A stretch of 64,000 bases of DNA from Ruminococcus sp. (GTDB lineage Bacteria > Bacillota > Clostridia > Oscillospirales > Acutalibacteraceae): positions 62,001 to 126,000 of the forward strand of contig JAFRCW010000040.1 of the NCBI GenBank assembly GCA_017404145.1, read 5' to 3'. Of the stretch, positions 3,003 to 52,295 are shown piece by piece; position 1 is the first letter of the stretch; each line of letters opens with the position of its first letter. The translations under genes were made by a program, and so were the position numbers. Below the pieces are notes generated by a model. The model ran no database searches. It had not been told where the DNA came from and worked only from the letters and a program-made list of their open reading frames with translations.

Positions 3003-4097
3003 ATGAAAAAGTTTATCAGCATTTTACTTGCGGTATTGCTTCTCGCGTCTGCCGCGGTAGTATCTGCCAACGCTTATTCTGTCTGGGAAGATGTTGTAAA
3101 TGATGACGGCGATATGGTTCCCAACCAGAGCGTGAGCGAAGCGGTTGCGGCTTATGAAGCGTCAACCGGCGAAAAGGTAGAGGTCTTCAGATACTACTTC
3201 CAGATGCCTGACGGCACCAACGGTCCTGTCGGCGCGGACGGCAAAAAGGCTCCCTCATGGATCCATGATGGCATTAACCGTATCAAAGACGATGACGGCA
3301 ATATTACAGCGGAATACTGCGGCATGTATTACTGGGCAACCGGCAGCTATCCCACCCCCAAGGCCTGGGCAGGTTACAAGGCTGAAAAGCTCGAAGGCGT
3401 TCCGAACGTATGGTATGCTGACGTTCCCGGCGCGGTTCTTACCATTATCTGGAACAACGGTGTTGACGGCGGCAACAACCCCACTGATCCCGACGATCCC
3501 GATGATATTTATTTTAAGGCAGCTCAGACCGATAACCTCAAGATCGAATATCTTGATCCCGGTGACGATGATGACTTCCCGGATGGTTTAGGTCAAGAAG
3601 ATGTTCCCGGCGCTTTCGCGAACATGATTTTCATCATCAACCCCGATAAGGTTGACATCAACGAGTATTCTCTGAAGCAGACCTGCGGCGGCAGATGGTA
3701 CTTCTACCTTGGCGACGGCTGCTATGCTGCTACCGCTGACGGCGACTGCTGCAACCCCGACCACTTTGACGAGGCCGGCAACCATGTAGGTTATCAGGAG
3801 CCCACCGAGCCTGCTACCGATGCGCCCACCGAGCCTGCTACCGATGCGCCCACCGAGCCCGGTCCCGCGAAGATCTTAGGCGACGTTGACGGCGACGGCG
3901 TTGTTTCCGTTCTCGACGCTACCAAGATCCAGAAGTTCAAGGCTTCCATCCTTACTGCGGACGATATCGATGTTTCTTTAGAAGTAGCTGACGTTGACGG
4001 CGACGGCGTTGTTTCCGTTATGGACGCTACTCGTATCCAGAAGTTCAAGGCGAAGATCATGAACCTCGACGGTACCACCCCCTACGTAGAAGCATAA
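3003..4097 (+). CDS. Secreted dockerin-bearing protein
   Basis: 364 residues. The start at 3003 has a perfect TTAGGAGG site. Signal peptide MKKFISILLAVLLLASAAVVSANA. A middle region of about 230 residues rich in Trp, Tyr and Asp (for example WYADVPGAVLTIIWNN and GGRWYFYLGDGCY) may be a carbohydrate-binding or peptide-binding beta domain; no family was recognised. A Thr/Pro linker with two PTEPATDA repeats leads to a type I dockerin with two Ca-binding repeats, GDVDGDGVVSVLDATKIQKF and ADVDGDGVVSVMDATRIQKF. Dockerins dock secreted enzymes onto cohesins of a scaffoldin. The same closing motif, LMNMDGS/IMNLDGT, recurs in the dockerin gene at 9830. A hairpin terminator follows. Confidence 0.85.
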   Translation: MKKFISILLAVLLLASAAVVSANAYSVWEDVVNDDGDMVPNQSVSEAVAAYEASTGEKVEVFRYYFQMPDGTNGPVGADGKKAPSWIHDGINRIKDDDGNITAEYCGMYYWATGSYPTPKAWAGYKAEKLEGVPNVWYADVPGAVLTIIWNNGVDGGNNPTDPDDPDDIYFKAAQTDNLKIEYLDPGDDDDFPDGLGQEDVPGAFANMIFIINPDKVDINEYSLKQTCGGRWYFYLGDGCYAATADGDCCNPDHFDEAGNHVGYQEPTEPATDAPTEPATDAPTEPGPAKILGDVDGDGVVSVLDATKIQKFKASILTADDIDVSLEVADVDGDGVVSVMDATRIQKFKAKIMNLDGTTPYVEA

Positions 4098-4110
4098 TCA
4101 CTGAAACGTT

Positions 4111-4140
4111 TAAAGACGCTCGCTGATGCGGGCGTCTTTT
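4111..4140 (+). terminator. Terminator after the dockerin gene
   Basis: AAAGACGCTCGCTGATGCGGGCGTCTTTT: an AAAGACGC/GCGTCTTT stem followed by a short T run. Confidence 0.7.
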
Positions 4141-4200
4141 CAATTAGGAATCAGAAATCAGGAATTAGGAATGATGGGCGGACGCTGTCCGCACCTGATT

Positions 4201-4282
4201 GTAGGGGAAGGTCTTGACCTTCCCGAATGCTGATATTACAATAACATTTCTGCAAGGCGGGAGGGTCAAGACCCTCCCCTAC
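4201..4282. repeat. GTAGGG...CCCTAC palindromic intergenic element, 82 bp
   Basis: The element begins GTAGGGGAAGGTCTTGACC and ends GGTCAAGACCCTCCCCTAC, so its termini are inverted copies. A shorter, AT-richer middle separates them. The same 82-bp length is found at 43824-43905, and related longer elements occur at 18224 and 42424-42863. No ORF. Confidence 0.7.
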
Positions 4283-4325
4283 TGTTGAACTAACAACCGG
4301 CAACAGGGAACAATCATTCCTAATT

Positions 4326-4387
4326 CCTCATTCCTAACTCCTCATTCTTTACGGTTCCTCATTCCTAACTCCTCATTCTTTACGGTT
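4326..4387. repeat. Two perfect 31-bp tandem repeats of the CCTCATTCCTAACT type
   Basis: Positions 4326-4356 and 4357-4387 are identical, and a degenerate third copy starts at 4388 (CCTCAGTCCTGACTCC). The same short word, in the other orientation (AATTAGGAATGAGGAATGAG), occurs at 4141-4172 and in the 3' end of mocA near 57553. The rest of 4141-4440 holds only such repeats. Confidence 0.75.
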
Positions 4388-4522
4388 CCTCAGTCCTGAC
4401 TCCTAATTTAACTTTTTCTTGTATCGGTAACGTCATTTATGTTATACTGTAACCGAACAATCATAAAACTGTCACATAACGCGTATATACTGGTTTTATC
4501 AAACCGGATCGGAGGGAACCCC

Positions 4523-5197
4523 ATGGCAAAATTATTGATCGTAGACGACGAATTCAGGATCAGGGAGCTGATCAAAAAATACGCCGAGTATGAGGGTCAT
4601 AAGGCGGATGAAGCTGAGGACGGCGAACAGGCGGTCCTCAAATGCAAAAACAACACCTATGACCTGATCATCCTTGATATTATGATGCCCAAGATGGACG
4701 GCTTTGAAGCCGCCGCGGCGATCCGCAAGTTCTCCTCCACCCCGATCATTATGCTGTCGGCAAAGGGCGAGGAGTATGACCGGCTCTCGGGCTTTGAGGT
4801 CGGCGTGGACGACTATGTCGTCAAGCCCTTCTCTCCCAAGGAGCTGATGATGCGCGTCGGCGCCGTGCTGCGCCGCGCCGGCAGCTCACAGAATGAGGAG
4901 AATAAGAATCAGTTCGTCTATCAGGGACTGGTGGTGGACTTTTCCGCGCGCGTCGTCACCGTAGACGGCGAGCGGGCGAATATGACCCCGAGGGAATATG
5001 AGCTGCTGTTCTATATGGTGCATAACAAAGGACTGGCGCTCACCCGTGAACAGCTGATCTCCAAGGTGTGGGGCTATGACTTTTTCGGCGACGACCGGAC
5101 GCTCGACACCCATATCAAGCTGCTGAGAAAATCCCTCGGACCGTATGCGGGTCTGATCGTGACTTTGCGCGGCGTAGGCTATCGCTTTGAGGTTTGA
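4523..5197 (+). CDS. OmpR/PhoB-type response regulator
   Basis: 224 residues, starting at ATG 4523 after GGAGGG. The receiver domain (about 1-120) has the acidic pocket DDE at 8-10, phospho-acceptor D52 in LIILDIMMPKMDG, and the conserved Lys in VVKPFSP. The C-terminal winged-helix DNA-binding domain contains LTREQLISKVWGYDFFGDDRTLDTHI. The histidine kinase gene begins 2 nt after its stop codon, so the two are translationally linked. The target genes are unknown, but dockerin/lipoprotein genes surround the pair. Confidence 0.92.
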   Translation: MAKLLIVDDEFRIRELIKKYAEYEGHKADEAEDGEQAVLKCKNNTYDLIILDIMMPKMDGFEAAAAIRKFSSTPIIMLSAKGEEYDRLSGFEVGVDDYVVKPFSPKELMMRVGAVLRRAGSSQNEENKNQFVYQGLVVDFSARVVTVDGERANMTPREYELLFYMVHNKGLALTREQLISKVWGYDFFGDDRTLDTHIKLLRKSLGPYAGLIVTLRGVGYRFEV

Positions 5198-5199
5198 GT

Positions 5200-6792
5200 A
5201 TGGAACAGACTGAGAAAAAGAAAGGGAAGAAAAACGGTAAAAAGCTCTCTTTAAAGGTGACGCTCACCGCGTCTTTCCTGCTGTTTTCGGCGGTACTGAT
5301 CGTGACGCTGTGGATCGTGCAGACGGTGTTTCTCGATTCCTTCTATAAGGCGATCAAGACCTCTCAGGTGCGTTCCTGTGCTCACTCGGTATCCGACAAT
5401 ATCGACGAGGACAGCGTTGACGATCTGATCTTGGATATCGAGGAGCAAAACGCGATGTGTGTTTCCGTCTATCAGACGGATGAGGATTGTCTGACCGCGG
5501 TATACAGAAGCGATAGAATTCGGATTCCCGATTCATTGGTGACTGACGAATACGCTTTAGAGATTTACCGAAAAGCCGTCGACGCAGGCGGGGAGTATTC
5601 CGAAATCACTTTCACGGGGATCAAAAGACATTTTGAACCGAAACAGATGGCTTTTCCCGAGGGCGAGACCGTCTTTGATGATCGGAACAACAACACTCAG
5701 AACAACAACACTCAGAACAACAGTGATCAGAACAATATCATACAAAATAATATAGAGAAAAAGGATGAACCCTCCTTAGAGCGCGAGTCTGTCTCACGGC
5801 TCGCCTACGCGGTCATCAACACTGCGGGTGAGAGCGAACGCCTGATTATTGTCGAGAGCGAGATCACCCCTGTCACCAGCGTAGTGGAGACCCTGCGGTT
5901 CCAGCTGATCATTATGACCGCGGTGCTGGTTGTCATCAGCGTGATCATCGCGCTGTTCACCGCGAGGAGCATCGCAAAGCCCATTTCCGACACCAATGAA
6001 AAGGCGAAAGCGCTCGCAAAGCAAAACTACGACGTTCAGTTCAAAGGAGGACGCTACAAGGAGATCAAGGAGCTCAACGATACCCTGACCTACTCCGCAT
6101 CCGAGCTGAAAAAGGTCGATACCCTGCGTAAGGAGCTCATCAGCAATATCTCCCACGATCTGCGTACCCCGCTGACGATGATCACCGGTTACAGCGAAGT
6201 GATGCGGGATATCCCCGGAGAGATGACGCCGGAGAATATCCAGATCATCATTGACGAGGCGAACCGCCTCAACGCTCTTGTCACCGATCTGCTCGATATC
6301 TCGCGGCTCGAATCGGGTACCGCCGATATCAAAAAAGCGCCATTCTCCCTGACGAGGTGCATCGAGAGCATTTTCTCACGCTATACCAAGCTGATCGAGA
6401 ACGAGGGCTACAGCATCACCTTTGACCACGGGGAAGAGGTTTTTGTCGAAGGCGACGAGCTGAGGATCACGCAGGTAGTTTACAACCTGATCAACAACGC
6501 GATCAACTATGTCGGAGAGGACAAGACCGTCAAGGTGATCCAGACGACTTCGGGCGATCAGGTAAGGATAGACGTCATCGACCACGGCGAGGGAATCCCC
6601 GCGGAGCAGATCCCCTATATCTGGGATCGCTACTACCGCGTCGACAAGGAGCATAAGACCGCGAAGATCGGCACGGGCCTCGGACTTTCCATCGTCAAGA
6701 ACATCCTCAAAGCGCACGACGCTCAGTTCGGCGTAGAGAGCGAGCCGGGCAAAGGCTCCGACTTCTACTTCATTTTAAACAGAATCCAGTGA
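5200..6792 (+). CDS. Sensor histidine kinase with Asn-rich extracytoplasmic segment
   Basis: 530 residues. A basic N-terminus, TM1 (about 20-45), an extracytoplasmic sensor region (46-232), TM2 (233-255), HAMP (256-305), dimerisation/phospho-acceptor domain with H319 in SNISHDLRTPL, and a HATPase domain with NLINNAINY, DHGEGIP and GTGLGLSIV. The sensor contains a low-complexity Asn/Gln tract at about 162-184 (NNNTQNNNTQNN...), unlike anything around it. ATG at 5200 is used; a TTG at 5194 is also in frame. It should phosphorylate the regulator just upstream. Confidence 0.9.
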   Translation: MEQTEKKKGKKNGKKLSLKVTLTASFLLFSAVLIVTLWIVQTVFLDSFYKAIKTSQVRSCAHSVSDNIDEDSVDDLILDIEEQNAMCVSVYQTDEDCLTAVYRSDRIRIPDSLVTDEYALEIYRKAVDAGGEYSEITFTGIKRHFEPKQMAFPEGETVFDDRNNNTQNNNTQNNSDQNNIIQNNIEKKDEPSLERESVSRLAYAVINTAGESERLIIVESEITPVTSVVETLRFQLIIMTAVLVVISVIIALFTARSIAKPISDTNEKAKALAKQNYDVQFKGGRYKEIKELNDTLTYSASELKKVDTLRKELISNISHDLRTPLTMITGYSEVMRDIPGEMTPENIQIIIDEANRLNALVTDLLDISRLESGTADIKKAPFSLTRCIESIFSRYTKLIENEGYSITFDHGEEVFVEGDELRITQVVYNLINNAINYVGEDKTVKVIQTTSGDQVRIDVIDHGEGIPAEQIPYIWDRYYRVDKEHKTAKIGTGLGLSIVKNILKAHDAQFGVESEPGKGSDFYFILNRIQ

Positions 6793-48999: not shown

Positions 49000-49030
49000 G
49001 TAGCGGGAAAACACAAAAGGAGTGAACGTT

Positions 49031-49606
49031 ATGCCGACCAAAAGAGAAGAACGCTTGGCACAGGATTATGATGAAATGATGAAGATTCAGGATCGACCGT
49101 ATCTCTCATGGGTCGCGACAAAAGGAGAGCTTCCCTGCGCGGAGGAATATCTTCTGACCGTCAGGCTCAGGACCTATGCGCTTTGTGCGAAAGACGGCAG
49201 ATATACCGTCGGCGCTGTGCGTCGGTGTACAATCAGGGTAACGCTGTGGGATTCTTATCCCGCTGTCGCTCCGAACATCAAGATGCTCAGTATCCCTCCG
49301 GTGTTTCATCCCAACTGGTATTCGAAAGGCACCTACTGTCCCTTAGAGCCGTGGCGTCCGGAGGATTCGCTGAAAGACTACATCAAGCAGATGATCCTCA
49401 CGCTCCTGTATGAGCCGTCTCTGATCGAGACCGCTGCTCCGGCAAACTACAAAGCGCTGGAGTGGTATAATAAGAATCGGGATAATGATGCGCTGTTCCC
49501 CTGCGACAGGATCGAGCTCAGCGAAAATGATCCGCAGGAGCTTGCCGCCTTAGAAAAAGCCGCCGCGACCTTTGAGGAGATCGTTGACAGCCGGGCGTTC
49601 GGATAG
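49031..49606 (+). CDS. Bacterial ubiquitin-conjugating enzyme (E2/UBC)-like protein
   Basis: 191 residues; ATG 49031 lies 8 nt after AAAGGAG. The UBC core spans about residues 5-150. The signature order is that of eukaryotic E2s: a beta meander with TIRVTLWDSYPAVAPNIKM, then PPVFHPN (H93-P94-N95), then the candidate catalytic Cys103 in SKGTYCPLEPW. The Asn-to-Cys distance of 8 residues equals that in classical E2 enzymes. Helical DYIKQMILTLLYEP and ETAAPANYKALEWY follow, matching the E2 helix with the A..Y end. A 40-residue helical tail (161-191) is extra. No E1-, ubiquitin- or deubiquitinase-like gene adjoins it. Its substrate and partner are unknown. The stop codon is TAG. Confidence 0.85.
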   Translation: MPTKREERLAQDYDEMMKIQDRPYLSWVATKGELPCAEEYLLTVRLRTYALCAKDGRYTVGAVRRCTIRVTLWDSYPAVAPNIKMLSIPPVFHPNWYSKGTYCPLEPWRPEDSLKDYIKQMILTLLYEPSLIETAAPANYKALEWYNKNRDNDALFPCDRIELSENDPQELAALEKAAATFEEIVDSRAFG

Positions 49607-49629: not shown

Positions 49630-49658
49630 TTGACAACTGATTTTTCCTGTGTTATATT
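49630..49658 (+). promoter_or_regulatory. Promoter of the small ORF (twin 2)
   Basis: TTGACA (49630-49635), 17-bp spacer, TATATT (49653-49658), with the same flanking words as the E2-like gene promoter. Confidence 0.7.
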
Positions 49659-49706
49659 GTAGGCAAGAAAACAGAGAGGCACATACCTTTCGGAAAGGAA
49701 ATTCAA

Positions 49707-49841
49707 ATGTTCAACATTCGTTTTGTTAACACCGTAATCGAATATCTGCATCTGGGTATGCTCCGCGATTATCGCGAGGGTTCTGGTTCCTTATGCTCAT
49801 ATGAGATCGGTAAAACAAAATGGTTGGACGTGTCTGATTGA
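49707..49841 (+). CDS. 44-residue ORF downstream of the E2-like gene
   Basis: ATG 49707 follows GGAAAGGAA. Sequence starts MFNIRFVNTVIEYLHLGMLR and ends TKWLDVSD. No family was recognised and no Gly-Gly end is present, so it is not a ubiquitin-like modifier. It is followed after 29 bp by a terminator hairpin whose loop repeats the palindrome CTCATATGAG found in the ORF, so it could be a regulatory leader rather than a functional protein. Confidence 0.5.
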   Translation: MFNIRFVNTVIEYLHLGMLRDYREGSGSLCSYEIGKTKWLDVSD

Positions 49842-49870
49842 CCGAAAATTCTGCGTATTGTAAATGACAA

Positions 49871-49905
49871 CCGCTTGCCTCTCATATGAGACAAGCGGTA
49901 TTTTT
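49871..49905 (+). terminator. Terminator/possible attenuator before the XRE gene
   Basis: CCGCTTG (49871-49877) pairs with CAAGCGG (49892-49898), with the palindrome TCTCATATGAGA inside the loop and TATTTTTG after. The same CTCATATGAG occurs at 49796-49805 and could pair with the loop copy at 49881-49890. Confidence 0.7.
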
Positions 49906-49956
49906 GTGTTCATTTATAAGCGGCAACAGACAATTTGAATTTCGGAGGTGAAAGGA

Positions 49957-50184
49957 ATGACCCGCTTACCTGTGATCAATATGGCTGCAACCGGTCAGAA
50001 TATCACGCGCTTGCGAAAACAAGCCGGCTTGACAGTGACCGCCTTGCAGCAGATCTTTGGTTTTGCAACGCCGCAGGCGATCTACAAGTGGCAGCGCGGC
50101 GCCGCCTTGCCCACGATTGACAACTTAGTCATCTTGGCGGCGGTATTCAATACCACGATCAACAATATTTTAGTCATTACATAA
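49957..50184 (+). CDS. Small XRE-family helix-turn-helix regulator
   Basis: 75 residues; ATG 49957 after CGGAGGTGAAAGG. The HTH spans about residues 12-68: NITRLRKQAGLTVTALQQIFGFATPQAIYKWQRGAALPTIDNLVILAAVF. It is nothing but the DNA-binding domain, as in many Firmicutes accessory loci. It sits between the E2-like/small-ORF genes and the tRNA array and is the obvious candidate to bind the twin promoters, though this is inference. Confidence 0.82.
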   Translation: MTRLPVINMAATGQNITRLRKQAGLTVTALQQIFGFATPQAIYKWQRGAALPTIDNLVILAAVFNTTINNILVIT

Positions 50185-50224: not shown

Positions 50225-50299
50225 ACGGGGTTAGTGTAGTGGAAGCACGATAGACAGAAAGAGCTATAAGGACAGGTTCGAATCCTGTACCCGGTACCA
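50225..50299 (+). tRNA. Degenerate tRNA-like sequence with encoded CCA, anticodon unclear
   Basis: The acceptor arms ACGGGGT/ACCCGGT pair at 6 of 7 positions. The D arm is GTGT...GCAC and the T arm ACAGG-TTCGAAT-CCTGT is intact. A plus CCA closes it. The anticodon arm (ATAGACAGAAAGAGCTAT) is one nucleotide too long, and no position gives U33 with a normal 7-nt loop. Probably a tRNA pseudogene or tRNA mimic. Confidence 0.55.
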
Positions 50300-50306
50300 T
50301 CAACAC

Positions 50307-50383
50307 GGCTCGGTAATTCAAAAGAGCAGAATACCTGACTGTCTATCAGGAGGTTGCGGGTTCAAGTCCCGTCCGAGCCGCCA
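50307..50383 (+). tRNA. tRNA-Asp (GTC)
   Basis: GGCTCGG/CCGAGCC acceptor, G73, CCA encoded. Anticodon stem CCTGA/TCAGG with loop CTGTCTA (anticodon 50341-50343). The D loop (ATTC-AAAAGAGCA-GAAT) lacks the usual GG pair. Its 3' end (from 50371) is duplicated at 50575. Confidence 0.85.
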
Positions 50384-50427
50384 TATCAATCAAAAAACGA
50401 TATACAAGCGGAATCGGACGGGATTTG
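50371..50427 (+). repeat. 57-bp direct repeat, copy 1 (includes tRNA-Asp 3' end)
   Basis: Begins GTCCGAGCCGCCATATC inside tRNA-Asp and ends GGACGGGATTTG. It is identical to 50575-50631. Confidence 0.85.
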
Positions 50428-50574
50428 AAGGCGACCGTGCCAAGGCTCAAGCGTGCGAAGAGCCGCAGGTAAAAATGATTCGGCGAATCATTTTTAGGGA
50501 GAGCGCAGAAGTCACTTTTCGAATCTGACCTTGGCAACAAGCGAGGTAGTTTTTATCCAACAAATAAAGACAAC
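50428..50574. other. 147-bp segment between the 57-bp repeats
   Basis: No gene. It contains a hairpin AAAAATGATT-CGGCG-AATCATTTTT (50471-50495). The segment may be the remnant of a small insertion or of a larger excised element at the tRNA-Asp end. Confidence 0.5.
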
Positions 50575-50631
50575 GTCCGAGCCGCCATATCAATCAAAAA
50601 ACGATATACAAGCGGAATCGGACGGGATTTG
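50575..50631 (+). repeat. 57-bp direct repeat, copy 2 (duplicated tRNA-Asp end)
   Basis: Exact copy of 50371-50427, displaced by 204 bp. Only the last 13 nt of the tRNA (with CCA) are present, as at attachment sites of tRNA-targeting elements. Confidence 0.85.
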
Positions 50632-50667
50632 TTTGGTGGACCCCGAAATATTATAAAAAAATAAAAT

Positions 50668-50741
50668 GGGTCGTTGGTGTAGTGGAAGCACGGTAGTTTG
50701 TGGCACTATCAGCGCAAGTTCGATTCTTGCACTTCCCTCCA
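50668..50741 (+). tRNA. tRNA-His-like (anticodon GTG)
   Basis: Anticodon stem GTAGT/ACTAT with loop TTGTGGC, anticodon GTG; T arm GCAAG-TTCGATT-CTTGC; CCA at 50739-50741. The acceptor stem GGGTCGT/ACTTCCC has two mismatches, and neither G-1 nor C73, the main histidine identity elements, is encoded (T at both). Possibly not charged normally. Confidence 0.65.
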
Positions 50742-50748
50742 AATGAAT

Positions 50749-50824
50749 GCTGCGATGATGGAATGGCATACATATACGGCTAAGAACCGTAGTTCTGAGA
50801 GTTCAAATCTCTCTCGCAGCACCA
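50749..50824 (+). tRNA. tRNA with Leu anticodon (AAG) but class I fold
   Basis: Perfect acceptor GCTGCGA/TCGCAGC, A73, CCA. D arm ATG/CAT with GG in the loop; anticodon stem TACGG/CCGTA with loop CTAAGAA (anticodon 50782-50784). T arm GAGAG/CTCTC. The variable loop is only 5 nt (50792-50796), whereas bacterial tRNA-Leu has a long variable arm. Confidence 0.75.
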
Positions 50825-50829
50825 AATAT

Positions 50830-50901
50830 GGCCCCTTGGTCAAGCGGTTAAGACATCAGATTTTCAATCTGGGATCGTGGGTTCAACTCCCGCAGGGGCT
50901 A
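50830..50901 (+). tRNA. tRNA-Glu (TTC)
   Basis: GGCCCCT/AGGGGCT acceptor, A73, no encoded CCA. Anticodon stem TCAGA/TCTGG with loop TTTTCAA. Body matches ordinary Firmicutes tRNA-Glu (TTGGTCAAGCGGTTAAGACA). Confidence 0.85.
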
Positions 50902-50909
50902 CTACTATG

Positions 50910-50998
50910 GGTAGGTAGAAGCGTAATTGGAAGCGCCGCGGACTGTAACTCCGTCGCCCGTTTGGGTCTTGCCGGTTCAAGTCCAGCCCTGCCTACCA
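50910..50998 (+). tRNA. tRNA-Tyr (GTA)
   Basis: GGTAGGT/GCCTACC acceptor, A73, no encoded CCA. Anticodon stem GCGGA/TCCGT, loop CTGTAAC. Long variable arm CCCGTTTGGG as expected for Tyr. One T-stem mismatch (GCCGG/CCAGC). Confidence 0.8.
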
Positions 50999-51001
50999 TA
51001 T

Positions 51002-51073
51002 GGCTCCTTAGTCAAACGGTTACGACGTCGGATTCTCAATCCGAAGATGTGAGTTCAACTCTCGCAGGAGTCA
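51002..51073 (+). tRNA. tRNA-Glu (CTC)
   Basis: GGCTCCT/AGGAGTC acceptor, A73, no encoded CCA. Anticodon stem TCGGA/TCCGA with loop TTCTCAA. It reads GAG only; a second Glu isoacceptor in the same array. Confidence 0.82.
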
Positions 51074-51079
51074 TCATAC

Positions 51080-51153
51080 GACTCGGTAGTTCAATTAGGC
51101 AGAACGCCTGATCGCCTGTCAGGAGGTTGCGGGTTCAACTCCCGTCCGGGTCT
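51080..51153 (+). tRNA. Asp-like tRNA body with GCC (Gly) anticodon
   Basis: Acceptor GACTCGG/CCGGGTC; D and T arms as in tRNA-Asp. Perfect stem CCTGA/TCAGG (51107-51111 with 51119-51123) encloses loop TCGCCTG, giving anticodon GCC with C instead of U at position 33. Position 73 is T and no CCA is encoded. Charging and decoding are both doubtful. Confidence 0.65.
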
Positions 51154-51163
51154 TTCTATCAAG

Positions 51164-51205
51164 ACCATACCGTTGATACAATGTCGATGGTATGGTTTTT
51201 CTCTT
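51164..51205 (+). terminator. Terminator of the tRNA array
   Basis: ACCATACC (51164-51171) pairs with GGTATGGT (51189-51196), then TTTTTCTCTTT. Confidence 0.85.
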
Positions 51206-51410: not shown

Positions 51411-52295
51411 ATGCTGAATTTTCAACCGATAGAAATTGATAAAATACCGCTCTACAAGCAATATTACGACTACAAAAGCGCGCTCGGATGCGAGTATAAC
51501 TTCGTCAGCGGCTATTTGTGGAGTAAAGAGTATCTATTGCGCGTTGCGCTTTATGACGATACGCTGATCAAGGCGTATTTCCGCGATGACAAAACCATCT
51601 GGGGCTACTGCCTTCCCTCGGGAAAAAATGTGAAGGGCGCGGTGGAAGCGGCGCTTGGCGACGCCCGGGACAGGGGACAGGAGCCGATGTTCGGCTATCT
51701 GTCGAAAAGTGAAAAAGAAAAGCTGGAGGAGATGTTCCCCTCACAGTATGTTTTTGAGAGGTCTTATGATACGCAGGACTACATCTATCTTTCCGAAGAT
51801 CTTGCAGGACTTGAGGGCAAGCGTTTTCACGCAAAGCGCAATCACATTTCGCACTTTTTCCGTGAATACCCGGATGCATACGCTGCTCCGCTGAACGACG
51901 GAAATCTGTCCGACGCCCTGCGCGTGATGGAGCTGTGGTGTAAGGAAAACGATCTTGATCCCGAAAAATACGGCGAGTACGCCGTGTTCTGCGATGCACT
52001 GGAGCACTATCAACAGCTTCAGATGCGCGGCGCGGTGCTCTACGCCGACGGCAAGCCGGTCGCTATGACGCTCGGCAGTGAGATATCGAGTCTGTGTTTT
52101 GATATTAACTTTGAAAAAGCCCTGCGTGAATACAGCGGCAGCTACGCGGTGATCAACAACGAGTTTGCCAAGACGCTGACCGCCTACAAATATATCAACA
52201 GGGAAGAGGACCTCGGGATCGAAGGACTTCGCAAGTCGAAGCTTTCGTATTATCCTGCTATCATCTATGACAGATTTGAGGCAAAACCGAAATGA
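51411..52295 (+). CDS. DUF2156 protein (GNAT-fold, lysyltransferase-like)
   Basis: 294 residues. The DUF2156 pattern is visible: NFQPIEIDKIPLYKQYY, CEYNFVSGYLW, KGKRFHAKRNHISHFFREYP-type segment (RFHAKRNHISHF), VINNEFAKTL and INREEDLGIEGLRKSKLSYYPA near the end. The fold is a tandem GNAT as in MprF C-terminal domains, which transfer aminoacyl groups from tRNA to lipids, but here there is no membrane part. The true substrate is unknown. It overlaps the next gene by 4 bp (ATGA), so both are one operon. It lies just downstream of the tRNA array. Confidence 0.86.
   Translation: MLNFQPIEIDKIPLYKQYYDYKSALGCEYNFVSGYLWSKEYLLRVALYDDTLIKAYFRDDKTIWGYCLPSGKNVKGAVEAALGDARDRGQEPMFGYLSKSEKEKLEEMFPSQYVFERSYDTQDYIYLSEDLAGLEGKRFHAKRNHISHFFREYPDAYAAPLNDGNLSDALRVMELWCKENDLDPEKYGEYAVFCDALEHYQQLQMRGAVLYADGKPVAMTLGSEISSLCFDINFEKALREYSGSYAVINNEFAKTLTAYKYINREEDLGIEGLRKSKLSYYPAIIYDRFEAKPK

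Follow-up and report, generated by a model that had tools for sequence, protein, structure and literature searches.

A noncanonical tRNA array in a Ruminococcus genome as the candidate output of a leader-peptide attenuator that senses tRNA depletion

What use does a bacterium make of a dense array of tRNA-like genes, several of them noncanonical, when most of the corresponding tRNAs are encoded elsewhere in its genome? The question is raised by a stretch of 64,000 nucleotides from Ruminococcus sp. (GenBank assembly GCA_017404145.1, contig JAFRCW010000040.1), referred to here as the window, which is part of a 2.54-Mb draft genome (G000:C26:62001-126000). Eight tRNA-like units occupy positions 50225-51153 of its + strand and end in a single terminator, as the original prediction, made from the sequence alone, had said; Rfam (RF00005) recognizes all eight and ARAGORN seven. 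Among the genome's 37 other tRNAs are His, Glu-UUC, five Leu, Tyr, Phe, and Gly-GCC, so the array is an extra set and not the sole source of such tRNAs; the 3' half of a chromosomal Asp tRNA also lies at a contig edge. A dense operon redundant with housekeeping tRNAs has the form expected of a stress-induced tRNA operon. Here, we propose that a sensor of tRNA depletion has the array as its output: in it, a leader-peptide attenuator would switch on altered replacement tRNAs, together with the RNA ligase RtcB where it is present. We give this reading a probability of roughly 0.75.

Operon architecture and its recurrence

In the window, the order on the + strand is promoter, leader open reading frame (ORF), intrinsic terminator, helix-turn-helix (HTH) gene, tRNA array, and terminator. 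The putative sigma-70-like promoter, TTGACA-17-TATATT (49630-49658), is a consensus match only (11 of 12 positions). It is followed by a Shine-Dalgarno-like GGAAAGGA (49692-49699, read on the sequence), which leads an ORF of 44 codons, MFNIRFVNTVIEYLHLGMLRDYREGSGSLCSYEIGKTKWLDVSD (49707-49841), and by an intrinsic terminator at 49870-49905 (stem 49870-49899, then A and TTTTT; -17.6 kcal/mol, z -6.6), whose palindrome is listed on the - strand only in our palindrome and promoter scan of the window. A promoter, a translatable short ORF, and an intrinsic terminator accordingly precede the first gene, as in an attenuator. That gene encodes an HTH_3 (Xre-like) protein of 75 amino acids from the ATG at 49957 (49957-50184), or 78 from the GTG at 49948, and the operon closes with a strong terminator at 51161-51199 (-22.8 kcal/mol, z -5.9). 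Within the leader, residues 8-29 (49728-49793) form a candidate control segment of Glu, Tyr, Leu(CUN), His, and Asp codons and three GGT Gly codons, readable by array tRNAs, and a strand at 49798-49814 (segment 2) is predicted to pair with the 5' arm of the intrinsic terminator. In the Rfam scan of the window, the only family over threshold was tRNA, and there was no T-box leader RNA.

This layout recalls the trp and his attenuators, textbook devices of amino-acid operons in which a promoter, a short ORF with control codons, and antiterminator and terminator pairs precede the structural genes. It differs from them in two respects: (i) their output is biosynthetic enzymes, whereas here it is tRNA genes (and RtcB), and (ii) the control codons here, which span many amino acids, correspond to the anticodons of the tRNAs encoded downstream.

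From these features, we infer how the operon would be expressed, in which direction it would be regulated and by what trigger, and that the array tRNAs would be charged, would decode, and would in part resist nucleases. Transcription would start at 49630-49658, and a short leader peptide, its middle made largely of codons for the tRNAs encoded downstream, would be translated. When these tRNAs are plentiful, the ribosome would reach the leader end and cover segment 2, the terminator would fold, and transcription would stop. When one is scarce, the ribosome would stall upstream, segment 2 would pair with the terminator 5' arm, and RNA polymerase would pass the terminator site and transcribe the HTH gene and the array, as well as RtcB where relatives have it. 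The scarcity would most likely be caused by cleavage by an anticodon nuclease or toxin, or possibly by a lack of charging. The array would then supply replacement tRNAs, several of which may escape the nuclease through altered anticodon loops, and RtcB, where present, would re-seal the cut tRNAs. The HTH protein probably regulates the same operon as well, at the promoter level.

The arrangement is not confined to the window. A search of Genome Taxonomy Database (GTDB) contigs with an alignment of four HTH sequences gave at least 569 relatives, of which the best 80 were kept. Beside the HTH gene, ARAGORN found at least one tRNA in 61, at least two in 53, and at least three in 44 of these 80; 68 have a leader ORF, and 22 carry RtcB within 1.5 kb upstream. 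Most relatives are Lachnospiraceae, Ruminococcus, Oscillospiraceae, and unclassified Clostridia; the record titles place many in animal guts. A cultured Lachnospiraceae carrier is Acetatifactor muris DSM 23669 (L126). Two congeneric genomes, G105 and G112, encode an HTH protein 75-76% identical to that of the window beside arrays with Glu and Ser, to which G112 adds Asp and Ile-UAU. Control HTH loci of other kinds (L034-L061, n = 28) had no arrays and a lone tRNA in three cases. When ORFs around the loci were clustered, only the HTH gene (89 loci) and RtcB (26) recurred at a fixed place across lineages, and no biosynthetic gene recurred downstream.

The attenuator elements recur with the array. 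A terminator with a consensus near ACCGCTTATCTTGTATGAGGTAGGCGGTATTTT lies upstream of the HTH-array or RtcB-HTH-array unit at 73 of the 92 loci examined, and 67 of these 73 have a leader ORF preceded by a GAAAGG signal; nine further leaders, which the pattern search missed, were identified manually. The leaders fall into families, such as MATVNFAANGFAYYLHSEHYEALFSKEKEQSLVKMRSCKVRKRRKTV in Lachnospiraceae and MITVRFTLSCKEHKELQSSFDYLDRLFVRSYKAKKHGYVIS in L098. Among 28 representatives, the 3' part of the leader co-varies with the terminator, pairing better with the 5' arm of the terminator at the same locus (-13.8 kcal/mol) than with swapped ones (-11.7 kcal/mol; p = 5e-5); terminator arms, as the positive control, behaved alike, and the 5' leader part gave nothing (p = 0.78). 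An alternative antiterminator on the terminator 5' arm is suggested by this pairing, the swap test being the one strong indication.

Other partners and origins were considered for the array. The original prediction had proposed a search for similar arrays beside E2-like genes. Homologues of the E2-like gene upstream (49022-49606; Pfam UQ_con, HPN..C motif) occur in 11 of 60 congeneric genomes (own genome excluded); at the 10 homologue loci for which tRNAs were listed there was no array, only a single Trp tRNA at one of them, so this partner was rejected. The LPG_synthase_C gene downstream (51411-52295) is not among the families that recur at a fixed place, and PADLOC returned no defence system except a weak HTH match. 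A phage origin was also set aside: the first similar record, MT839421 (L001), carries RtcB, HTH, and tRNAs on an unannotated contig from faeces, and viral-collection contigs gave 10 HTH relatives, two of them with nearby tRNAs. As the 80 relatives come from bacterial assemblies, the mobility that had been proposed is weakly supported. One viral-collection contig (L291) has a DUF2828/DUF7788 (vWA-type) gene at 3871-5373, 17 tRNAs, the HTH gene, and a terminator. Genes for such proteins, which we take to resemble the Ro60/TROVE proteins of RNA repair, also adjoin arrays at L159, L088, and L114.

Leader codons and array anticodons

The leaders are rich in codons that the downstream tRNAs would read. 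With readable codons counted by simple wobble rules, the array-readable fraction averaged 0.287 in leaders and 0.084 in the HTH genes, the leader being higher at 57 of 61 loci, and leaders paired with their own arrays exceeded swapped pairings (p = 1.5e-4; 21 representatives with <65% leader identity). Among 17 representatives with <85% identity, 103 of 110 array codon boxes were found in the control segment of their own leader (stratified permutation, p <= 5e-5). Permutation within lineages (four Oscillospiraceae-type and eight Ruminococcus-type loci) gave p = 1.4e-4 for the segment and p = 5.6e-4 for the whole leader. The motif and segment were defined after the leaders were seen; the whole-leader tests are independent of both. 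Six segment settings were tried in the box test and two in the within-lineage test, all with the same direction. The whole-leader codon-fraction test used low-threshold ARAGORN, which adds doubtful units; therefore, the box, within-lineage, and position tests used default ARAGORN, and the window's Tyr unit, known from Rfam, was added in the box test, the within-lineage test, and the codon profile. Anticodon calls 'aga' and 'agg' (Lys-like units with inserts) and loci with fewer than three or four tRNAs, or without a leader, were dropped before the counts.

Individual loci illustrate the correspondence. Trp, Asn, and Met are present in both the leader segment and the array of L104, and Cys in neither. 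L098 shows the opposite pattern: its leader segment and array share Cys and lack Trp, Asn, and Met. The array at L145:5354-6112 contains four Leu tRNAs with a short-variable-arm body (UAG, CAG, GAG, and CAG) and one more Leu, and its leader is rich in CUN Leu codons. Ile-UAU is found in five arrays, with AUA in the leader of four; AUA also occurs in 14 of 38 leaders of arrays without Ile-UAU. In the window, the three GGT codons of the leader segment match a rebuilt Gly-GCC tRNA with an Asp-like body and U73.

These codons are also unevenly placed. Across 42 loci, codons readable by the own array made up 0.58-0.61 of the positions 7-18 codons ahead of the antiterminator motif, compared with 0.03 farther upstream (25-36 codons ahead) and 0.21-0.26 past the motif. 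This profile is consistent with control codons, related to the operon's product, standing upstream of the antiterminator.

A simpler account would be that the array is a constitutive supplementary tRNA cluster serving codon usage, that what lies upstream is an HTH repressor and a small protein gene of the ordinary kind, and that the match reflects shared codon bias. Arrays dense in tRNAs are indeed known from Firmicutes, phages, and plasmids, according to the excerpted text of two papers (PMC5966550, PMC6409571), and L003 in our set is a plasmid array of 21 tRNAs. However, the arrays read the codons of the adjoining HTH genes far less than those of the leaders, exchanging arrays between loci lowers the fit even when the exchange stays inside a lineage, the match is densest ahead of the antiterminator, and a terminator separates the promoter from the array. 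We regard this account as very unlikely.

Altered anticodon loops and the state of the window copy

Several array tRNAs have anticodon loops that differ from those of their chromosomal isoacceptors, namely Asp, Glu, Phe, Met, and Gly; in the first four, positions 37/38 are changed. Counted as distinct sequences, with a chromosomal set from the window's genome and relatives, the Asp loop is CTGTCAC in 16 of 16 chromosomal tRNAs and canonical in none of 10 array tRNAs (CTGTCTA in eight, CTGTCGA in two). The chromosomal Glu(UUC) loop is CTTTCAC, with C38, in 20 of 20, whereas A38 is present in 29 of 29 array Glu(UUC) and 35 of 36 array Glu(CUC) tRNAs. Phe A37 is present in 10 of 10 chromosomal and absent from five of five array sequences, and the array Met loop is TTCATAA in four of five. 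In array-carrying genomes, the chromosomal Glu and Asp copies listed, which do not extend to L260-L281, keep canonical loops; the A38 exceptions are the L145 array (= L244), a further Gln-Glu locus in the same genome (L249), and the L083 array (= L259). Judged from these loops, the altered array tRNAs may resist an anticodon nuclease.

The same loops bear on what the leader would sense. The stalling of a ribosome on uncharged tRNA and on cut tRNA would look alike in sequence, and the trp/his-type architecture would suit an amino-acid starvation attenuator, in which a leader responsive to the uncharged tRNAs of many amino acids would let the array boost tRNA supply during starvation. However, a downstream biosynthetic gene never recurs, the enzyme associated with the arrays is an RNA ligase, RtcB (in 22 of the 80 relatives), and altered loops would be unexpected for simple starvation relief. 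Amino-acid limitation would throw the same switch; the RtcB linkage and the altered loops favour tRNA damage over it, and we consider the starvation attenuator improbable. The link to tRNA-cleaving enzymes suggested in the original prediction is plausible, given the altered loops, the RtcB of many relatives, and a leader resembling a shortage sensor; the part it assigned to the array, that of decoys or sponges for tRNA-cleaving toxins or of non-translational RNAs, is not the best reading.

The irregularities that the original prediction described in the units of the window were borne out. The first unit (50225-50299; 43.4 bits) has a His-like 5' half and an over-long anticodon loop, read by ARAGORN as a 4-nt anticodon 'gaaa'; tRNA-Asp(GUC) (50307-50383; ARAGORN and Rfam) has a D-loop without GG and has U37. 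The His(GUG)-like unit (50668-50741) lacks G-1, has U73 in place of C73, and is mismatched at acceptor pairs 4-69 and 5-68. It is followed by tRNA-Leu(AAG) with a short variable arm (50749-50824) and tRNA-Glu(UUC) with the loop UUUUCAA and A38 (50830-50902), both found by ARAGORN and Rfam, and by a Tyr(GUA)-like unit (50913-50995) that default ARAGORN misses and Rfam scores at 29.2 bits against a threshold of 29. The last two, again found by both programs, are tRNA-Glu(CUC) with A38 (51001-51075) and the unit with Gly anticodon GCC, C33, and U37 on an Asp-like body with U73 (51080-51153). CCA is encoded in five of the eight units and is lacking in both Glu units and the Gly unit. All eight exceed the Rfam threshold, at 29-63 bits compared with 44-72 bits for the genome's other tRNAs. 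The over-representation proposed for Tyr, His, and Asp, the GUN group, holds only in part, as the most frequent array members are Glu and Ser(AGY) and not the GUN group alone.

That the first unit and the His unit are degenerate, and that some units have inserts or lack CCA, would suit RNAs that act as bait or outside translation. In contrast, the anticodons of the arrays follow the leader codons from locus to locus, and this speaks for tRNAs that decode; many array units elsewhere score high against a cloverleaf model trained on 28 chromosomal tRNAs, and loops unlike the chromosomal ones would make poor baits. A decoy or non-translational role therefore seems remote to us.

Part of this irregularity could instead mean that in the window the system survives only as a remnant in decay: the genome lacks RtcB, a 284-nt insertion lies inside the array, one unit is broken, and the first unit and the Tyr unit score low. 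The short Leu variable arm and the His 4-69 mispair also occur in relatives and are therefore lineage features, not decay. Moreover, the attenuator elements (leader, terminator, antiterminator) are all preserved, recent adaptation is suggested by a Gly-GCC unit that is specific to this locus, carries U73, and is matched by GGT codons, and the congeneric G112 likewise keeps an array without RtcB. Decay of the window's copy thus appears unlikely, if less so than the decoy reading.

Several observations count against the tRNA-depletion sensor. Among codon boxes without an array tRNA, 124 of 281 are nevertheless in the leader segment; L159 has an Ile-UAU tRNA and a leader without AUA, and L162 has a Ser(GCU) tRNA and a segment without AGY. 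Compared with dinucleotide-shuffled leaders, the pairing of segment 2 with the terminator was not significant (mean z -0.46; 12 of 75 below -2). ARAGORN found no tRNA at 19 of the 80 HTH loci, and 17 of these 19 contigs extend more than 2 kb past the HTH gene. The array loops of His, Tyr, Lys, Gln, Cys, Asn, and Ser mostly match the chromosomal ones, so loop alteration is not general. RtcB was found in seven of 12 array genomes tested, and its absence from the window's genome means that repair is not part of the window's copy, in which the first unit and the His unit may not be chargeable.

The insertion in the window's array (50384-50667, + strand) contains a 58-nt direct repeat that carries 16 nt antisense to the 3' half of the Asp tRNA, as well as a repeated core. 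It belongs to a repeated element found directly behind tRNA genes here and in L301-L304, L019, L028, L085, L087, and L090. The element opens with an antisense copy of the T-arm and acceptor of the adjoining tRNA (14-16 of 16 nt at six of seven listed places; 12 of 16 in L182). Next come a core GGCGA..GTGC, an AAAAA-hairpin-TTTTT, and a GAGAGCGC-like end. The window's genome has ten matches (the element itself and one internal hairpin match counted), at least five of them behind chromosomal tRNAs, and no known Rfam family fits.

Inserts were also seen within tRNA-like units elsewhere. At L001:2207-2330, behind RtcB and HTH, a unit has an anticodon-loop insertion of ~50 nt and is possibly an intron-like tRNA next to an RNA ligase. 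In Lachnospiraceae, a Lys tRNA between terminator and HTH has, in some strains, ~20-nt inserts before the anticodon stem or in the T-arm (L113:317-412, L119:4867-4960, L106:4835-4925, L156:453-548).

Related systems and meaning for gut Clostridia

The closest likeness is the trn operon of Anabaena PCC 7120, which, according to the excerpted text of PMC10272220, is normally silent and is induced by translational stress, its repressor TrcR also controlling rtcB. Both are dense tRNA operons beside a housekeeping set, with rtcB co-regulated in Anabaena. However, TrcR is a ribbon-helix-helix repressor acting at promoters, whereas the clostridial operon is headed by an attenuator leader and an HTH_3 gene, and the terms 'leader', 'attenuat', and 'terminator' do not occur in the text of that paper. 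In the Rtc RNA-repair operon, the ligase RtcB is linked to tRNA damage and the CARF-domain activator RtcR is tied to damaged tRNA (PMC7790460, in excerpt); in the clostridial unit, sensing would go through leader translation. Phage tRNAs with anticodon-loop changes have been proposed, in the excerpted text of PMC10264068, to evade host tRNases. They share with the arrays the character of altered-loop spare tRNAs, but they are phage-borne, whereas the arrays lie in bacterial assemblies with a sensor of their own, and resistance is in our case deduced from the loops.

The clostridial unit would join leader-peptide attenuation to a stress tRNA operon. We did not find it described in the literature on tRNA arrays, RtcB, leader peptides, and attenuation, a search that was not exhaustive, so that an earlier mention is possible. 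If our reading is correct, leader codons that mirror the downstream tRNAs would make tRNA supply self-sensing, the occurrence of noncanonical tRNA arrays in gut bacteria would be simply explained, and the loci would offer a natural test of whether altered-loop spare tRNAs resist nucleases. The wider picture, which we credit about as readily as we doubt it, is that gut Clostridia possess a sense-and-replace system against tRNA-cutting enzymes, in which the leader would be the test strip and the genes it controls a cleavage-resistant set, complemented by RtcB re-ligation, with leader codons and array anticodons co-evolving. As the two would evolve together, each leader would then record which tRNAs have been attacked by the enemies of its lineage, and the sequence alone would predict which tRNAs are under attack.

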